Below, in pieces: positions 23,555 through 64,000 of a DNA stretch of 64,000 nt. The notes beneath the pieces were generated by a model. The model was not told the DNA's origin and searched no databases. It saw nothing but the letters and a program-made list of their open reading frames with translations. Where the stretch lies: positions 62,001-126,000 of the forward strand of contig JAFMVD010000002.1 of the NCBI GenBank assembly GCA_025499625.1, read 5' to 3'. The stretch's first letter is position 1. Each line of letters opens with the position of its first letter. Source of the DNA: Carboxylicivirga fragile. GTDB lineage: Bacteria > Bacteroidota > Bacteroidia > Bacteroidales > Marinilabiliaceae. Both the position numbers and the translations under genes were made by a program.

Positions 23555-23593
23555 GAAATGGCCGAATCAAACGTGATTAGGCCATTTCTATTT
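23555..23593 (+). terminator. Rho-independent terminator after amt
   Basis: GAAATGGCC (23555-23563) and GGCCATTTC (23580-23588) form a perfect 9-bp stem followed by TATTTT. The hairpin also ends the convergent lysC gene region. Confidence 0.85.
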
Positions 23594-24963
23594 TATCCAA
23601 AAAATTCGTCATGAATTGCACCTATGGCCTTATCCTGATCAGATGCATCAACAATAAAATAACTTGCTACCGCAGATGCTCCAGATACAATCATCTTAAC
23701 ATTCACATCCTGACGAGCCAAAGCCATGAATAAACGACCTGATATACCCGGCTTGTCAAGTAAGCCCTGCCCAACAACAGCAATGGTAGAAATCTGCTCT
23801 TCCACGACCAACTCAGTTATAGCAGATAACTCCAACTCTTCTACAATACGATAAGCTTTTTTAATATCACTAACTGAAAGCATCAGGTTAATTACAATTT
23901 GCGATGTAATAACTGACTTAATATTTATTCCTGCCTTATCCAGAGCTACCGTTACTTTGGCTAAAACCCCGCGCTTTAATCCAACACCTGCACCTCGTAA
24001 CTTAAGGATACAAAAATCATTACTATAGGTAACACTCTTAATAATGGCATCGGTCACCTCTTCGGTTCCGCACACCACAGTACGAGGCTCAATCACCCCA
24101 CTAAAGGCATCAATATTTCCAATATTTATTGGAATATTTAATCGCTTAAGCGGCTCAACAGTACGCGGATGCAGTATGCCTGCACCAAAATAAGATAACT
24201 CAGCGGCTTCGGCATAACTTAAAGACTTCAAGCGACGTGGCGCGTTAACCAGTTTTGGATCGGCACTCATAAAGCCATCCACATCTTTCCACACATCTAA
24301 AGATTCAGCCTCGAGGCAGCGCGCCAAAGCAGCGGCTGAATAATCGCTACCTCCTCTTCCTAATAAAGTAACTTTACCCTTTGGCGATACACCATAAAAC
24401 CCTGGCACCACATAAACCTTATCTTCTCCCAAACGTTTCTGCACATGCTCCGATGCAACCTTATAATCAACCGTTGCATTACCAAACTCACCATCAGTTA
24501 CCAAAGGCATTTCTTCGGGCAAAGCCTCTTCTGCTTCTATTCCGTTAGCTTGTAGAATTGATGTCAAAACCAAAGAACTCAAACGCTCGCCGTAACTCAA
24601 CACAACATCTTCAACAAACTCAGGCACATCACCAATATAATGAACACCAGTTAAATATCTACTTAATTCTCCGATACGCTCCTCAACCAATCGCATGGTT
24701 TTCTCTTGCCAATGCTTTTCCTCAAAATTTTCAAGAATGGCTTCTTCTTTTAATTCACGTAAAAAACGCGTTAAAGTATTTATATAAGATTCATCTTTTT
24801 TTACTTCTGCAAGCGAAGTAATTAAATGATTTGTAATGCCATAAAATGCTGAAACAACAATGACCATTGGACGATTATAAGCTTTTATAACGCCAACTAA
24901 TTTTTGAATATCTTCTTTCTTCTTAAGGTTTGAACCGCCAAATTTGGCTACAACTTTCTTCAT
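23593..24963 (-). CDS. lysC: Aspartate kinase
   Basis: This 456-residue monofunctional aspartokinase makes aspartyl phosphate, the first step to lysine, threonine, methionine and diaminopimelate. The N-terminus VVAKFGGSNLKKKEDI is the KFGGSS-type phosphate site (Asn replacing the last Ser); GRGGSDYSAAALA is the aspartate-binding region. The C-terminal third (from about residue 310) has two ACT-type regions (VALDKAGINIKSV, MALARQDVNVKMIVSGAS) for feedback control. Length matches E. coli LysC-type enzymes, so it is not fused to homoserine dehydrogenase. Confidence 0.92.
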   Translation of the reverse strand: MKKVVAKFGGSNLKKKEDIQKLVGVIKAYNRPMVIVVSAFYGITNHLITSLAEVKKDESYINTLTRFLRELKEEAILENFEEKHWQEKTMRLVEERIGELSRYLTGVHYIGDVPEFVEDVVLSYGERLSSLVLTSILQANGIEAEEALPEEMPLVTDGEFGNATVDYKVASEHVQKRLGEDKVYVVPGFYGVSPKGKVTLLGRGGSDYSAAALARCLEAESLDVWKDVDGFMSADPKLVNAPRRLKSLSYAEAAELSYFGAGILHPRTVEPLKRLNIPINIGNIDAFSGVIEPRTVVCGTEEVTDAIIKSVTYSNDFCILKLRGAGVGLKRGVLAKVTVALDKAGINIKSVITSQIVINLMLSVSDIKKAYRIVEELELSAITELVVEEQISTIAVVGQGLLDKPGISGRLFMALARQDVNVKMIVSGASAVASYFIVDASDQDKAIGAIHDEFFG

Positions 24964-25314
24964 GGTGTATAAAATATACCGGACTATGCCGAAACGAATA
25001 ATAAATTTTAATGATGCATATTCAAATGCAATAAACGGAGGTAATCATTATAGAAGCCACAAGGGCATTCGAAAACATTGTTGAAGTAAAATCATATAAT
25101 TGGTTTAAATTCATCATCTTCCTTTCGGAATCAGGTTTTGGCACCTGCCGTTTTGGTGGTTGCCAGAAGTTCATAGAGCCTGTCTCTCCCTTCTTCTTAA
25201 TAAACTCAAACGCTTTTTGCACAAATACAAAAAGCTGCACAAAACTAAGTGAAGCAATTTTAATAAACAAATGAGAGCTTAAATTGAAAAGCTGATTTTA
25301 CTCAAATAGAAATG
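24964..25314. other. Intergenic region with a possible gene remnant
   Basis: A short imperfect palindrome GGTGTATAAAATATACC (about 24965-24981) lies directly before the lysC start. On the minus strand 25022-25270 an 82-codon open frame could encode a peptide with a middle section reading QPPKRQVPKPDSERK that looks protein-like, but it has no recognised domain and its first 30 residues look like chance. I treat it as a possible remnant or small gene, not as a supported CDS. Confidence 0.3.
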
Positions 25315-60051: not shown

Positions 60052-60188
60052 ACCCCGACATAATTGCACTTAATTTTGAGCATCAAAATTATTAGTAAAA
60101 CTTAGTCGGCATGCAACTTGTGTTTTTTTAAAAAAATATTTGGGCTAATCAAGCTTAAAAACATAACTTAGCAATAAGTTGTTAAATA

Positions 60189-60302
60189 TAAATCTCCGAG
60201 CTCTTAAACCTTTAAAATGGTTTGCTAGCCGATGGGTTAAACCGGAAACAGTTTAGCCTCCCGATTCCGTTACATCGGAATAATTTGGAAAGGAGAGATT
60301 AG
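60189..60302 (+). ncRNA. Moco riboswitch (aptamer)
   Basis: The RNA has the conserved blocks I associate with the Moco motif: TCTCCGAG at the 5' side, GCCTCCCG (60256-60263) in the core and TTTGGAAAGGAGAG at the 3' side. Visible stems are P1 (60191-60196 with 60295-60300), a stem AAACC/GGTTT (60206-60223), a stem GGG-x-TAAAC with GTTTA-x-CCC (60234-60262), and ATTCCG/CGGAAT (60264-60281). It precedes the Moco biosynthesis operon, as Moco riboswitches do. Confidence 0.82.
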
Positions 60303-60318
60303 GATAAAAGCATTAATT

Positions 60319-60361
60319 AAATGCCTGATCTCTGCGTATACGTAAGAGTCAGGCATTTTTT
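60319..60361 (+). terminator. Riboswitch expression-platform terminator
   Basis: AAATGCCTGA (60319-60328) and TCAGGCATTT (60349-60358) form a perfect 10-bp stem, extended by CTCT/AGAG, followed by T-run to 60361. ATCTCT (60328-60333) can instead pair with AGAGAT (60294-60299) in the 3' side of aptamer P1. P1 and the terminator can therefore form together, or the antiterminator can form. Confidence 0.85.
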
Positions 60362-60372
60362 AGTTTATAAAC

Positions 60373-60903
60373 ATGGTATTAAATAATTATCTGCTCATTG
60401 CCGGAAATGGTCGAAATGTTGGTAAAACATGGCTAAGCGAACTGTGTATACGCGAGCTTGCCAAACAGCATGATGTCATCGCTCTTAAAATTGCATCGCA
60501 TGCACATGCAATTAACGAAGACATTGAACAGCTTGCAGGTAAAAACAAACAATGGATGATTGGCTTGGAAACCAATCGTAATTCATCGAAAGATAGTGCA
60601 CGCATGCTGAAAGCCGGTGCTGCCCTTGCCTATTATGCCCAATTAAATAATGATGCCTTTTTACCTGATTTACTTCAATGGTTGAAAGAAAATATCAAAG
60701 CTGATCAGCCTGTTATTTGTGAATCATCCGCCATTGGTCGATTTATTAAACCCGGCCTGGCCTTTTATGTGGAAGATCATAGCAATAGCGACAAAACTTG
60801 CGCCTGGGATTTTCCCTTTAGCACACAGCAATCGCAGCAAAATAGAATTATTAACCCTCCAAGTACAATCAGATGGGAAAAGAACAGTTGGCAAATAAAA
60901 TAA
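60373..60903 (+). CDS. MobB-like P-loop protein
   Basis: The 176-residue protein has Walker A GNGRNVGKTW near its start and LALKIASHAHAIN-type sequence after it, as in MobB and related small P-loop proteins (dethiobiotin synthetase-like fold). The position as the first gene behind the Moco riboswitch, overlapping moeA by 31 bases, favours MobB, which assists guanine dinucleotide cofactor synthesis. It is more divergent than typical MobB, so a related P-loop protein is possible. Confidence 0.6.
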   Translation: MVLNNYLLIAGNGRNVGKTWLSELCIRELAKQHDVIALKIASHAHAINEDIEQLAGKNKQWMIGLETNRNSSKDSARMLKAGAALAYYAQLNNDAFLPDLLQWLKENIKADQPVICESSAIGRFIKPGLAFYVEDHSNSDKTCAWDFPFSTQQSQQNRIINPPSTIRWEKNSWQIK

Positions 60904-62075
60904 TTAGCATCGATGAGGCCAAAGCCATTGTTGAAAGTGTTGTTACAGCTCTAAGTACAGAAAAACTACCTCCCCATCTGGCCATAGGGCGTAATTTAAG
61001 TTCTGAGGTCATAGCTACGGTGTTTATCCCGCCCTTTAACCGTTCGGCCATGGATGGTTTTGCATGCCGCTTAGAGGATTTATCTGAACCACTAAAAGTA
61101 CTTGGCACCATTGCTGCAGGCGAAAGCTCAAATATCACACTTAATAAGGGAGAATGTTTGCGTATCATGACTGGCGCACCTGTGCCCAAAGGCGCAGATA
61201 CAGTTATCATGGTGGAACACAGCGAAAGCATAGATGAAAATACAATTCGCTTCACGAAGGATAAAACAAAATCAAACATCAGCCCCAAGGGCAACGACCT
61301 AAAGCCAGGTGATGTATTACTGAAGGCTGGTAGCATCATCAAATCACCTCAAATAGCATTACTGGCTTCCTCGGGCATAAGTGAAGTAAATGTTTACCAA
61401 CAGGCAAAGGTCGGCATCATCTCTTCAGGCAGCGAATTGGTTGAACCTGGTAACGCTTTGCAAGAGGGGCAAATATACAATAGCAATGGCCATCAACTAA
61501 CATCACGTTTAAACGAGTTGGGCATAGTAGCTAATAATTATGGTGTTAGTGTTGATGACTATGACTTACTAAAAACAAACATAAGCGAAGCCATCACTGC
61601 CAATGATTTATTGCTTATTACGGGCGGCGTGTCGGTTGGCGATTACGATTATATTCCCGCCATTGTTGAAGAACTAGGTTTTGATATTCATTTCTCAAAA
61701 CTGCATGCTAAACCAGGCAAACATACCCTTTTTGCTAGCAAAGAGAATAAAGTAATACTGGGCCTTCCGGGCAACCCTGTTTCCACACTTATACAATTTG
61801 AAGAATGCGGCCAGTGGATATTAAAAGCTTTTGCAGGGAGTACACATCAAGCCTTACGCATTAAATCACAGATGGCATGTGACTATTCGCGTAAGAAAAG
61901 CGATCGTTACGAGCTATTGCCTGTCATCATTAATGAAGAAGGACAGGTTAAAACAATCGAATATCACGGTTCTGCCCACATGCAAGCGATAACTGAAGCC
62001 AATGCCTTGCTTGAGATACCCATCAATATAAACTCATTAAAAAAAGGAGAAAGCGTGTATGTTAGACCCTTTTAA
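60873..62075 (+). CDS. moeA: Molybdopterin molybdenumtransferase
   Basis: The 400-residue enzyme inserts molybdate into adenylylated molybdopterin. Recognised blocks are PPFNRSAMDGFAC, IMTGAPVPKGADTVIM, GIISSGSELVEPG, LLITGGVSVGDYDYI and GLPGNPVST. Length is normal for MoeA. It overlaps the MobB-like gene by 31 bases and moaA by 17 bases, so the three are translationally coupled. Confidence 0.93.
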   Translation: MGKEQLANKIISIDEAKAIVESVVTALSTEKLPPHLAIGRNLSSEVIATVFIPPFNRSAMDGFACRLEDLSEPLKVLGTIAAGESSNITLNKGECLRIMTGAPVPKGADTVIMVEHSESIDENTIRFTKDKTKSNISPKGNDLKPGDVLLKAGSIIKSPQIALLASSGISEVNVYQQAKVGIISSGSELVEPGNALQEGQIYNSNGHQLTSRLNELGIVANNYGVSVDDYDLLKTNISEAITANDLLLITGGVSVGDYDYIPAIVEELGFDIHFSKLHAKPGKHTLFASKENKVILGLPGNPVSTLIQFEECGQWILKAFAGSTHQALRIKSQMACDYSRKKSDRYELLPVIINEEGQVKTIEYHGSAHMQAITEANALLEIPININSLKKGESVYVRPF

Positions 62076-62859
62076 GCGACATATAAATTATTTACGTATC
62101 TCGGTCACCGATCGTTGTAACCTTCGTTGCCGCTATTGCATGCCCGAGGAAGGCATTGATATGATAGCGCACGAAGATATTCTGAGCTTTGAAGAAATAG
62201 AAGATTTGGTGCGACTGAGTGTTGAACAAGGTGTTACAAAGATTCGCTTAACAGGAGGTGAACCCTTAGTGCGAAAAGGCATCGTTAACCTGGTTCAAAT
62301 GATTGCAAATATCGAAGGCGTTGATGATTTGGCCATGACCACCAATGGTATTTTACTTGAGGCGATGGCAACAGATCTAAAGGATGCCGGCTTACAGCGC
62401 GTTAATATCAGCCTCGACACTATGGATGCCAAGAAATTTAAACACATAACACGAGGTGGCGATATCAACAAAGTATTTGCAGGCATTAGCGCTGCTCAGG
62501 CAGCAGGATTAAATCCAGTAAAGATAAATTGTGTGGTTCGTAATTCGGGCGATGAACCCGATGCCAAGGAAGTAGCTGCTTTTTGTAAGGCTAATAATTT
62601 ATCCATCCGTTACATTCATCAGATGAATCTTGAAGATGGTTCCTTTTCGAAGGTTGAGGGTGGTGAAGGTGGCAAATGCGATACCTGCAACCGAATACGC
62701 CTGACCGCCGATGGCACCTTTAAGCCTTGCTTATTTAATGAGGCTGGCTACAATACCAAAACGCTGGGAAATAATGAAGCATTTAATCAAGCCATAACCA
62801 ACAAACCTAAATCGGGAACAAAAAATAAAAGTGGTCGCTTTAATCAAATAGGTGGTTAA
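62059..62859 (+). CDS. moaA: GTP 3',8-cyclase MoaA, short form
   Basis: This radical SAM enzyme makes 3',8-cyclo-GTP, the first Moco intermediate. It has the SAM cluster motif in TDRCNLRCRYCMP, LTGGEPLVRK, the second cluster motif C-x2-C-x13-C in KCDTCNRIRLTADGTFKPC, and the C-terminal Gly-Gly (NQIGG) needed for activity. At 266 residues it is about 60 shorter than usual MoaA (about 325-330): the region between the barrel and the second cluster is reduced. All catalytic elements seem to be kept, so I do not call it broken. It overlaps moeA by 17 bases. Confidence 0.9.
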   Translation: MLDPFKRHINYLRISVTDRCNLRCRYCMPEEGIDMIAHEDILSFEEIEDLVRLSVEQGVTKIRLTGGEPLVRKGIVNLVQMIANIEGVDDLAMTTNGILLEAMATDLKDAGLQRVNISLDTMDAKKFKHITRGGDINKVFAGISAAQAAGLNPVKINCVVRNSGDEPDAKEVAAFCKANNLSIRYIHQMNLEDGSFSKVEGGEGGKCDTCNRIRLTADGTFKPCLFNEAGYNTKTLGNNEAFNQAITNKPKSGTKNKSGRFNQIGG

Positions 62860-63002: not shown

Positions 63003-63452
63003 ATGAAAAATAAACTATCACACATAGATAAAAAAGGAAAAGCCAACATGGTAGATGTGGGCGATAAAGCCATTCAGAAACGAAGTGCCAAAGCCTGTGG
63101 TTTTATTCAACTCAACGAAGAAACATTAGAGCAAATAAAGGAGAACAACAATAAAAAAGGCGATGTGCTTACGGTAGCTGAAATAGCTGGCATACAAGCC
63201 GCCAAAAGATGTTCTGATTTAATTCCACTTTGTCATACACTTCTATTGAGTAAAGTAGCTGTGACATGCGAACTTAAAAGCAAAGGCGTTTATGTTCATT
63301 CCGAAGTAAAATGCAAAGGAGAAACAGGTGTAGAGATGGAAGCTCTTACTGCGGTTAATGTGGCTTTACTTACTGTCTACGACATGTGTAAAGCAGTGGA
63401 TAAAAACATGGTGATCACTGACATCAAGCTACTTGAGAAAAAGAAAAAATAG
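63003..63452 (+). CDS. moaC: Cyclic pyranopterin monophosphate synthase MoaC
   Basis: This 149-residue enzyme turns 3',8-cyclo-GTP into cyclic pyranopterin monophosphate. The family blocks are SHIDKKGKANMVDVGDK, LIPLCHTLLLSKV, and GVEMEALTAVNVALLTVYDMCKAVDK. Length is slightly short of the usual 160 residues but all core blocks are present. It works directly after MoaA; the next gene carries the MogA domain of the pathway. No moaD or moaE is within the window. Confidence 0.93.
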   Translation: MKNKLSHIDKKGKANMVDVGDKAIQKRSAKACGFIQLNEETLEQIKENNNKKGDVLTVAEIAGIQAAKRCSDLIPLCHTLLLSKVAVTCELKSKGVYVHSEVKCKGETGVEMEALTAVNVALLTVYDMCKAVDKNMVITDIKLLEKKKK

Positions 63453-63489: not shown

Positions 63490-64000
63490 ATGCAAATAAA
63501 AGTTTTAGCTGTTAATACTTCCGAAAAGAAAGGCACTGTTAAAAAACCGCAAGATCAAATCACGCTTGATGCCAATGGTGTTATAGGTGATGCACACAGT
63601 GGCCCCTGGCACCGTCAAGTCAGTTTATTGGCTACCGAAAGCGTGAAGAAGTTTGAGAAGGACGCCAAACGAGAGATTAAGCCTGGCGAGTTTGCCGAGA
63701 ACATCACAACCAGTGGAATAGAGTTGCATAAACTTCGTCCTTTTGATAAGTTGATAGGGCAAAACATAGAGTTAGAGGTAACACAAATTGGTAAGAAATG
63801 CCATGGCGATAATTGCAACATCTTTAAAGAGGTTGGTAACTGTGTGATGCCCAAAGAGGGCATTTTTGCGCGTGTATTAAAAGGTGGTACTTTACAAGCC
63901 GATGATTCTTTTATGTATTTTCCACGTACCTTCAAATGTCAGATTATTACCATGAGCGACAGAGCCTACGCCGGCGTGTATCATGACAAAAGTGGCCCCT
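63490..64000 (+). CDS. MOSC domain fused to MogA/MoaB-type domain (3' end outside window)
   Basis: The frame begins at the ATG at 63490 and runs off the right end. The first 150 residues form a MOSC domain, with GVIGDAHSG, RQVSLLATESVK, LRPFDKLIG, GKKCHGDNCNIF and GIFARVLKGG; Cys residues in that last region fit sulfur or molybdenum-cofactor handling. From about residue 155 the chain reads CQIITMSDRAYAGVYHDKSGP, which is the start of a MogA/MoaB-like molybdopterin adenylyltransferase domain. The fusion would couple cofactor adenylylation to a MOSC domain. Confidence 0.85.
   Translation, partial: MQIKVLAVNTSEKKGTVKKPQDQITLDANGVIGDAHSGPWHRQVSLLATESVKKFEKDAKREIKPGEFAENITTSGIELHKLRPFDKLIGQNIELEVTQIGKKCHGDNCNIFKEVGNCVMPKEGIFARVLKGGTLQADDSFMYFPRTFKCQIITMSDRAYAGVYHDKSGP

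Follow-up and report, generated by a model that had tools for sequence, protein, structure and literature searches.

A Moco/Tuco riboswitch aptamer without stem P3 ahead of molybdenum cofactor genes in Carboxylicivirga fragile, with a predicted terminator/antiterminator switch

Riboswitches of the Moco RNA motif were described by Regulski et al. (2008, PMC2408646), with 176 RNAs of which 58 are without stem P3. Since tungsten genes occur in 17 of the 19 organisms with a P3-lacking RNA, the authors proposed the tungsten cofactor (Tuco) as the ligand of this type, and this correlation of 2008, i.e., presence or absence of P3, is the published rule for discriminating between molybdenum (Mo) and tungsten (W) in this class. 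P3-lacking members are found ahead of Moco synthesis genes, and terminator platforms were described for some of them. The Moco riboswitch of Escherichia coli moaA has P3 and a platform at the ribosome site (PMC2408646); for the same leader, termination was reported in an RNA-seq analysis of 2025 (PMC12121620). A Moco RNA of Caldithrix abyssi, which belongs to another phylum outside the 2008 list, lies near genes for Moco synthesis and transport (PMC5317091). Bacteroidota are not mentioned in the available main text of PMC2408646 (no occurrence of 'Bacteroid'). A literature search of partial coverage found neither a paper reporting a Moco riboswitch in Bacteroidota, although the Rfam member list may hold such RNAs, nor a later test of the P3 rule.

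Here, a stretch of 64,000 nt from Carboxylicivirga fragile (GCA_025499625.1, contig JAFMVD010000002.1, positions 62,001 to 126,000; referred to as the window) was analyzed. Its RNA resembles the P3-lacking type of PMC2408646 in that it scores over the family cut-off, has P1, P2, P4, the GAAA tetraloop and the conserved core, is without P3 and precedes Moco synthesis genes. It differs from this type by an extra P5 hairpin and by a host without tungsten genes. With the E. coli moaA riboswitch it would share the feedback control of Moco synthesis genes, but it has no P3, and its platform is a classical terminator/antiterminator. The C. abyssi RNA comes from a phylum other than that of the window's host. 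By score and by logic, the window RNA belongs to a known riboswitch class; its predicted termination switch is unusually easy to read, and its lineage goes against the published metal rule. On the basis of the aptamer match, the alternative helices with their folding order, the operon and the conservation in relatives, the locus is very probably an OFF switch that would act by transcription termination. Judged from gene content, its probable ligand is the molybdenum cofactor.

Aptamer and operon

A covariance search with RF01055, which an earlier sequence-only reading of the window had proposed, matched positions 60182-60311 of the forward strand with 58.1 bits (gathering cut-off 36; E 2.5e-11), and this was the sole RF01055 match found in a search of the genome. 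The family and orientation named in that reading were supported by the profile score and by folding. The model was matched over its whole length (1-135), with the columns of P3, between P2 and P4, deleted in the alignment. The earlier reading had labelled the RNA a Moco switch and had passed over the missing P3, the proposed mark of tungsten-cofactor sensing. The features of the locus are as follows.

60139..60171, + strand: candidate promoter, TTTG (60139-60142), 21 nt, TAACTTAG (60164-60171) (from the sequence)
60182..60311, + strand: Moco/Tuco aptamer without P3 (RF01055 match)
60193..60197, + strand: 5' strand of P1, pairs with 60292-60296 (Rfam register, folding, relatives)
60200..60229, + strand: P2 with collapsed tetraloop-receptor loop, CCU 60209-60211 and AUGG 60217-60220 (folding, sequence, relatives)
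60234..60259, + strand: P4 with GAAA tetraloop 60245-60248 (RF01055 alignment, folding, sequence)
60264..60281, + strand: extra P5 hairpin, AUUCCG/CGGAAU (folding, relatives; insert of at least 12 nt in Bacteroidota rows)
60292..60296, + strand: 3' strand of P1 (Rfam register, folding)
60294..60303, + strand: 5' strand of the antiterminator, overlaps P1 (folding, relatives, enforced folds)
60319..60358, + strand: intrinsic terminator hairpin, T-run 60356-60361 (folding, hairpin scan, sequence, relatives)
60324..60333, + strand: 3' strand of the antiterminator, also within the terminator 5' arm (folding, relatives, enforced folds)
60373..60903, + strand: first gene, P-loop protein of 176 aa, distant MobB relative (15 of 28 aligned members match PF03205 MobB, E<=0.01)
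60873..62075, + strand: moeA (profile matches)
62059..62859, + strand: moaA, 266 aa (TIGR02666, 294.5 bits, cut-off 284)
63003..63452, + strand: moaC (profile matches)
63490..64000, + strand: MOSC-domain gene, ends beyond the window at 64419 (PF03473; part match to NF011069)

The folding energy of the 181-nt leader was low (z = -4.67), and none of 200 shuffles was equally low. Rfam register and minimum-energy fold agree on a P1 of 5 bp (UCUCC/GGAGA). The pairing of 60191-60196 with 60295-60300 given for P1 in the sequence-only reading can form, but it is a slipped register that is 1.5 kcal/mol worse (-55.0 versus -56.5). P4 carries the GAAA tetraloop expected of RF01055. The putative tetraloop receptor in P2 has kept CCU and AUGG, but its distal stem is reduced to a short loop. 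For this collapsed loop (60209-60220), the window sequence is CCUUUAAAAUGG, and the loci G004, G006 and L149 have CCUGUAAAAUGG.

The RNA stands ahead of the Moco synthesis genes moeA, moaA and moaC and the MOSC-domain gene, which is the gene context expected of RF01055. The second half of the MOSC-domain gene appears MogA/MoaB-like by eye. The first gene product by itself matched no Pfam or NCBIfam family, and a search of solved structures for this MobB-like protein returned none at E<=0.1. It is conserved and has the P-loop motif GNGRNVGKT; the MobB matches of its aligned members are weak. The upstream genes of the same strand encode a PhsA-like molybdopterin oxidoreductase and its NrfC-like and NrfD-like subunits, each scoring below the cut-off of its family, and further a rhodanese and two proteins of the sulfur-transport family PF04143. 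A second riboswitch, of the SAM family RF00162, was found elsewhere in the window (25108-25206, - strand; 68.0 bits). It precedes the gene at 23593-24963, which by eye is aspartokinase-like.

Occurrence and the question of the metal

The RNA was found in 10 of 60 related genomes (own included) and in 7 of 14 within the genus. In the family it occurs in at least 9 of 71 genomes and in the phylum in at least 21 of 395 at E<=0.001 (at least 19 over the cut-off), counts that are lower bounds because the larger searches filter more strictly; 19 of the 21 lie outside the window's class. About five of the 22 phylum matches seemingly have a P3-like stem (L012, L014, L019, L026, L031; by eye). A pattern scan of named genomes for the P3-lacking core gave at least 118 loci, and those listed comprise 60 from Bacteroidota (including five contigs identical to G004, G005, G007, G011 and G022), 3 from Chlorobiota or Kapaibacteria and 55 from other phyla or without a phylum name. 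Contigs of C. marina, C. mesophila, Carboxylicivirga sp. M1479 and an uncultured Carboxylicivirga are among those on which the scan found the RNA. All 12 of the listed loci that were checked exceeded the RF01055 cut-off. The sequence-only reading had expected a Bacteroidota copy to extend the range of the class; the phylum does lie outside the groups in the abstract of PMC2408646, but the copies are many and not isolated. Isolate hosts of P3-lacking RNAs belong to Carboxylicivirga, Marinifilum, Labilibaculum, Ancylomarina, Maribellus, Draconibacterium and Sunxiuqinia, so that the P3 rule is testable in cultured bacteria.

An insert in P5, mostly a hairpin, marks the Bacteroidota RNAs. The distance from CCUCCCG to the conserved GGAAAGG was 12 to 28 nt in all 64 listed Bacteroidota rows (62 distinct loci, two being held twice) and 15 to 24 nt in the three listed rows of Chlorobiota/Kapaibacteria, compared to 5 nt or less in 51 of the 55 listed rows of other phyla (exceptions L063, L073, L074 and L125). 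The insert forms a hairpin of at least 3 pairs in 52 of the 62 listed loci, and in 48 of the 62 it does so at p<=0.05 versus shuffles. This hairpin follows phylogeny, and Bacteroidota with AOR carry it too. Neither P3 nor P5 could be retained as a clean metal marker inside Bacteroidota, where the same P5-extended, P3-lacking form occurs with and without AOR.

Four markers were searched in genomes with and without the RNA: AOR (PF01314), WtpA (TIGR03730), TupA (NF041772) and ModA (TIGR01256). The window's genome (G000) had no match to TupA, WtpA or AOR, and its ModA scored 158 bits. Among the 60 relatives, AOR was present in 7, WtpA in 6, TupA in none and ModA over the cut-off in 20. The 10 RNA-bearing genomes of these 60 had no AOR, WtpA or TupA, and none of the 7 genomes with AOR has the RNA. 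Taken alone, this difference (0/10 versus 7/50) does not reach significance (p 0.59, in a test that treats related genomes as independent). For a wider sample, 35 Bacteroidota genomes with an exact match to the core pattern were picked from the 60 listed loci, isolates first, and 33 of them were searched (13 isolates and 20 MAGs; two isolates were missing). AOR was found in 6 of these 33, TupA in none, WtpA over the cut-off in 3 and ModA over the cut-off in 19. Its 13 isolates had no AOR, no TupA and no WtpA over the cut-off, and all 13 had ModA over the cut-off; the single weak WtpA match among them (32.5 bits, in G460) overlies the ModA of that genome. Where the operon begins with a MobB-like or MoeA gene, a tungsten marker over the cut-off was present in 0 of 23 genomes and ModA over the cut-off in 22.

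Outside Bacteroidota, 14 genomes showed AOR in 14, TupA in 10 (none over the strict cut-off), WtpA over the cut-off in 6 and ModA over the cut-off in 5. These genomes were hand-picked (15 chosen from the 55 listed loci, of which 14 were searched), several of them for a visible tup or AOR gene near the RNA, so that the 14 of 14 with AOR serve as a positive control of the marker searches and do not give a rate. The first genes behind the listed RNAs outside Bacteroidota, unpicked, matched TupA in 12 of 48 and AOR in 6 of 48 (7 of the 55 listed loci had no readable first gene). None of the 57 readable first genes in listed Bacteroidota loci matched a solute-binding or AOR family (3 of 60 had no readable first gene). 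The marker and first-gene counts thus show the 2008 correlation outside Bacteroidota, whereas it breaks down in most of the Bacteroidota that were examined.

The strongest competing explanation is that the window RNA is a Tuco sensor, as the rule of 2008 predicts, and that tungsten is used in an enzyme hidden from the three tungsten markers. It is favored by the missing P3, by the tungsten genes in 17 of 19 organisms in PMC2408646 and by the TupA and AOR first genes in other phyla. The absence of the three markers leaves room for tungsten use, 6 of the 33 searched Bacteroidota genomes with such an RNA do carry AOR, and the PhsA-like oxidoreductase upstream, below its family cut-off, could use either metal. 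Some formate dehydrogenases accept both Mo and W. Against a Tuco sensor stand the 10 RNA-bearing relatives without any tungsten marker, the AOR genomes among the relatives, all without the RNA, and the lack of solute-binding or AOR first genes in the listed Bacteroidota loci. On balance, a Tuco sensor is considered unlikely. Somewhat less likely still is a P3-lacking, P5-extended RNA that does not discriminate and reports any metal-loaded pyranopterin, Mo or W. The occurrence of the same RNA type with AOR in 6 and without AOR in 27 of the 33 Bacteroidota genomes (among the loci listed) fits this explanation; however, the genomes with AOR could have retained a Moco sensor for their molybdoenzymes.

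Despite the missing P3, Moco rather than Tuco is therefore taken as the probable ligand, as judged from gene content. The P3-lacking set is large, and most of the searched genomes of the isolate genera look Mo-using, without known tungsten genes. Loss of P3 alone is thus no mark of tungsten use, and the Carboxylicivirga-type lineage probably senses Moco.

First genes behind the RNA

Of the 57 listed Bacteroidota loci with a readable first gene, 33 begin with a TauE/SafE (PF01925) permease. The others begin with MobB-like P-loop genes (21, by motif), MoeA (1) or TonB receptors (2); Pfam MobB itself was matched by 7 of the 57. The order RNA, permease, MobB-like gene was seen in many loci; in Carboxylicivirga a MobA gene also lies in between. 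Examples with the permease first are L048:6200-6928, L060, L070 and L035.

The two kinds of operon differ in their ModA content. ModA over the cut-off was found in 1 of 16 genomes with permease-headed operons (the exception, G015, at 66.6 versus 62.5 bits) compared to 22 of 23 with other-headed operons (Fisher 1e-8, with genomes treated as independent though they are related). Four genomes were left out of this comparison: L037 and L121, in which a TonB receptor is first and no ModA is over the cut-off; G022, whose first gene is off the contig (ModA 182 bits); and G037, whose first gene was not identified (no ModA). The MoeA tree implies at least 3 changes between the two operon kinds, and three independent pairs, too few for significance, point nearly all in the same direction. 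This pattern suggests that the TauE/SafE permease may import molybdate. Since all 6 AOR genomes among the 33 Bacteroidota are permease-headed, import of tungstate is possible as well. In the available text of papers joining TauE or TSUP with molybdate, molybdenum or riboswitches (including PMC7266159), no statement of such transport was found, and the regulon points to a transporter family that was not found described there as a molybdate carrier.

A broader proposal can be put forward tentatively, at slightly less than even chances: the Bacteroidota RNAs would be Moco sensors of a third structural type, in which P3 is missing and P5 is extended, and the TauE/SafE permease would be an undescribed importer of molybdate, perhaps of tungstate, replacing ModABC. 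If true, P3 is not the feature that discriminates Mo from W, and comparison of P5-extended with P5-short P3-lacking RNAs should reveal that feature.

Several further arrangements were seen behind the RNA. In Carboxylicivirga, the same upstream genes precede two versions of RNA plus operon (L151, L152, L153 and L156 versus L154, L157 and L159), and the MoeA proteins of the two versions are far apart on the tree; this looks like replacement in place. A chromate-transporter (PF02417) half follows a small companion protein behind the Moco RNA in L013 (1995-2513; profile), and a similar arrangement was noted by eye in L017, L023, L028 and L031, which like L013 are from other classes of the phylum. 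In L015 (1674-2282), L016, L020, L021, L022 and L024, a small membrane-protein-like gene follows the RNA, with a weak PF09819 match below the cut-off in L015 and none in L020; it may encode the substrate component of an energy-coupling-factor transporter. A TonB-dependent receptor gene lies directly behind the P3-lacking RNA in L037, L063 and L121 (profile) and, by size and place only, probably in L073; these receptors may take up molybdate, tungstate or a chelate across the outer membrane.

Terminator and antiterminator

Folding gave a 10-bp antiterminator helix between 60294-60303 (AGAGAUUAGG) and 60324-60333 (CCUGAUCUCU), unbroken and with one U-G pair, and a terminator with the arms 60319-60336 and 60341-60358 (-19.5 kcal/mol in the hairpin scan). 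A simple consensus terminator scan did not report this hairpin, probably because its stem is interrupted. When the terminator 5' arm was shuffled, 10 of 20,000 shuffles reached a helix of this length overlapping P1; a looser test, open to every helix in the 120 nt downstream, gave a p of about 0.013. P1, antiterminator and terminator are mutually exclusive helices, as judged from folding and conservation in relatives. The competition among these three helices and its OFF logic had been proposed in the sequence-only reading and are supported by the profile score and by folding. Of the helices it had drawn, the antiterminator (60294-60299 with 60328-60333) is predicted with 10 bp, not 6 bp, and the terminator hairpin is as given, except that 60328 lies inside the 5' arm and is not its start.

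In the predicted folds of growing transcripts, the helices formed in the order P1, antiterminator, terminator. The mean pair probability of P1 was 0.54-0.94 up to 60330, that of the antiterminator 0.91-0.97 from 60333 to 60351, and P1 returned at 0.81 from 60354. These values come from ligand-free equilibrium folding at 37 °C, a crude proxy for co-transcriptional folding, and it is the minimum-energy fold at full length, together with enforced folds, that places the takeover by the terminator at 60354. With either P1 or the antiterminator enforced, a comparison close to the P1-on/P1-off check suggested in the earlier reading, the helices exchanged the lead along the transcript: the antiterminator was ahead of P1 by 5.8 kcal/mol at 60336, 3.9 kcal/mol at 60345 and 3.2 kcal/mol at 60350, and behind it by 1.8 kcal/mol at 60353, 7.6 kcal/mol at 60356 and 9.6 kcal/mol at 60362. 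At full length, the fold with P1 and terminator was 9.6 kcal/mol better than that with the antiterminator. Since the antiterminator leads by 3.2-5.8 kcal/mol at 60336-60350, a few kcal/mol contributed by the ligand would probably decide the outcome.

These folds are consistent with a cis-acting OFF riboswitch that would control by transcription termination. In the absence of ligand, 60324-60333, once transcribed, would capture the 3' strand of P1; the antiterminator would occupy the terminator 5' arm, and polymerase would enter the operon. The ligand-bound aptamer would hold P1 closed, leaving 60319-60336 free to pair with 60341-60358, and the terminator so formed would halt transcription at the T-run ahead of the first start codon. 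As the operon makes the molybdenum cofactor, the switch would represent end-product feedback. Riboswitch membership together with OFF control by termination is regarded as very probable from the profile match and the folding models.

The same leader was present in three relatives (G006, G004 and G022), with a mean column identity of 71% over the four sequences including the window. P1 is unchanged in all four, and 9 of the 10 antiterminator pairs are intact in all four. The antiterminator pair 60299-60328 varies from U-A to U-G and is still paired, in the terminator too. The outermost antiterminator pair is broken in two of the four (G006 and G022), and the outermost terminator pair is broken in G004. 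The terminator pairs 60320-60328/60349-60357 are intact in G006 and G004; the contig of G022 stops short of the complete terminator. Compensatory changes among the relatives were seen in P2 (60206-60223, 60207-60222 and 60209-60220) and in the P5 hairpin. Both alternative helices are kept in an otherwise diverged sequence, as the aligned leaders indicate. Covariation of P1 and antiterminator, which the sequence-only reading had looked to for a check, was not seen in the window and three relatives and gives no support either way, because P1 is invariant and changes in the antiterminator are confined to one pair that stays paired and to the outermost pair, which two of the four sequences break.

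An alternative in which the aptamer is real, the hairpin is incidental and the RNA acts on translation or stability is improbable, since six T follow directly on the window stem, the antiterminator shares sequence with P1 as well as with the stem (10 of 20,000 shuffles), and G006 and G004 have retained both the stem and the antiterminator, although a hairpin scan found no terminator in 32 of 64 listed Bacteroidota rows, the consensus scan missed the window hairpin and a platform at the ribosome site is described in E. coli (PMC2408646).

An antiterminator shared across Bacteroidota was looked for and not found. In a common test, 6 of 62 listed rows reached p<=0.05 versus 3.1 expected, namely L114, L124, L136, the window and L135/L157, the last two being one locus (5 distinct loci); G006 was at p 0.073, and in other phyla 10 of 57 listed rows reached p<=0.05. 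With a shorter aptamer stretch, p<0.05 was reached by 5 of the 32 listed Bacteroidota rows in which a terminator was found, which represent 4 distinct loci and, L124 excepted, belong to the clade of the window; none of the 36 other listed rows reached it.

Bacteroidota promoters have the consensus TAnnTTTG at -7 and TTTG at -33. The candidate promoter at 60139-60171 fits 7 of 8 letters of the -7 consensus and is weakly kept in relatives. A scan for sigma-70-type promoters gave three weak sites (1.6 expected), none directly ahead of the RNA.

Other hairpins were noted near the RNA in more distant loci. In L061, L123, L139 and L143, a hairpin-like stretch follows the RNA, and pairing of its first arm with UUGGAAAGG of the aptamer itself is possible; a U-run lies behind the second arm in three of the four, and none of the stretches is significant by itself. 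They are perhaps a different platform design. In L003, L004, L005 and L008, the aptamer is preceded by a hairpin with the arms AUGCCU/AGGCAU, whereas in the window a similar stem comes after the aptamer, as its terminator.
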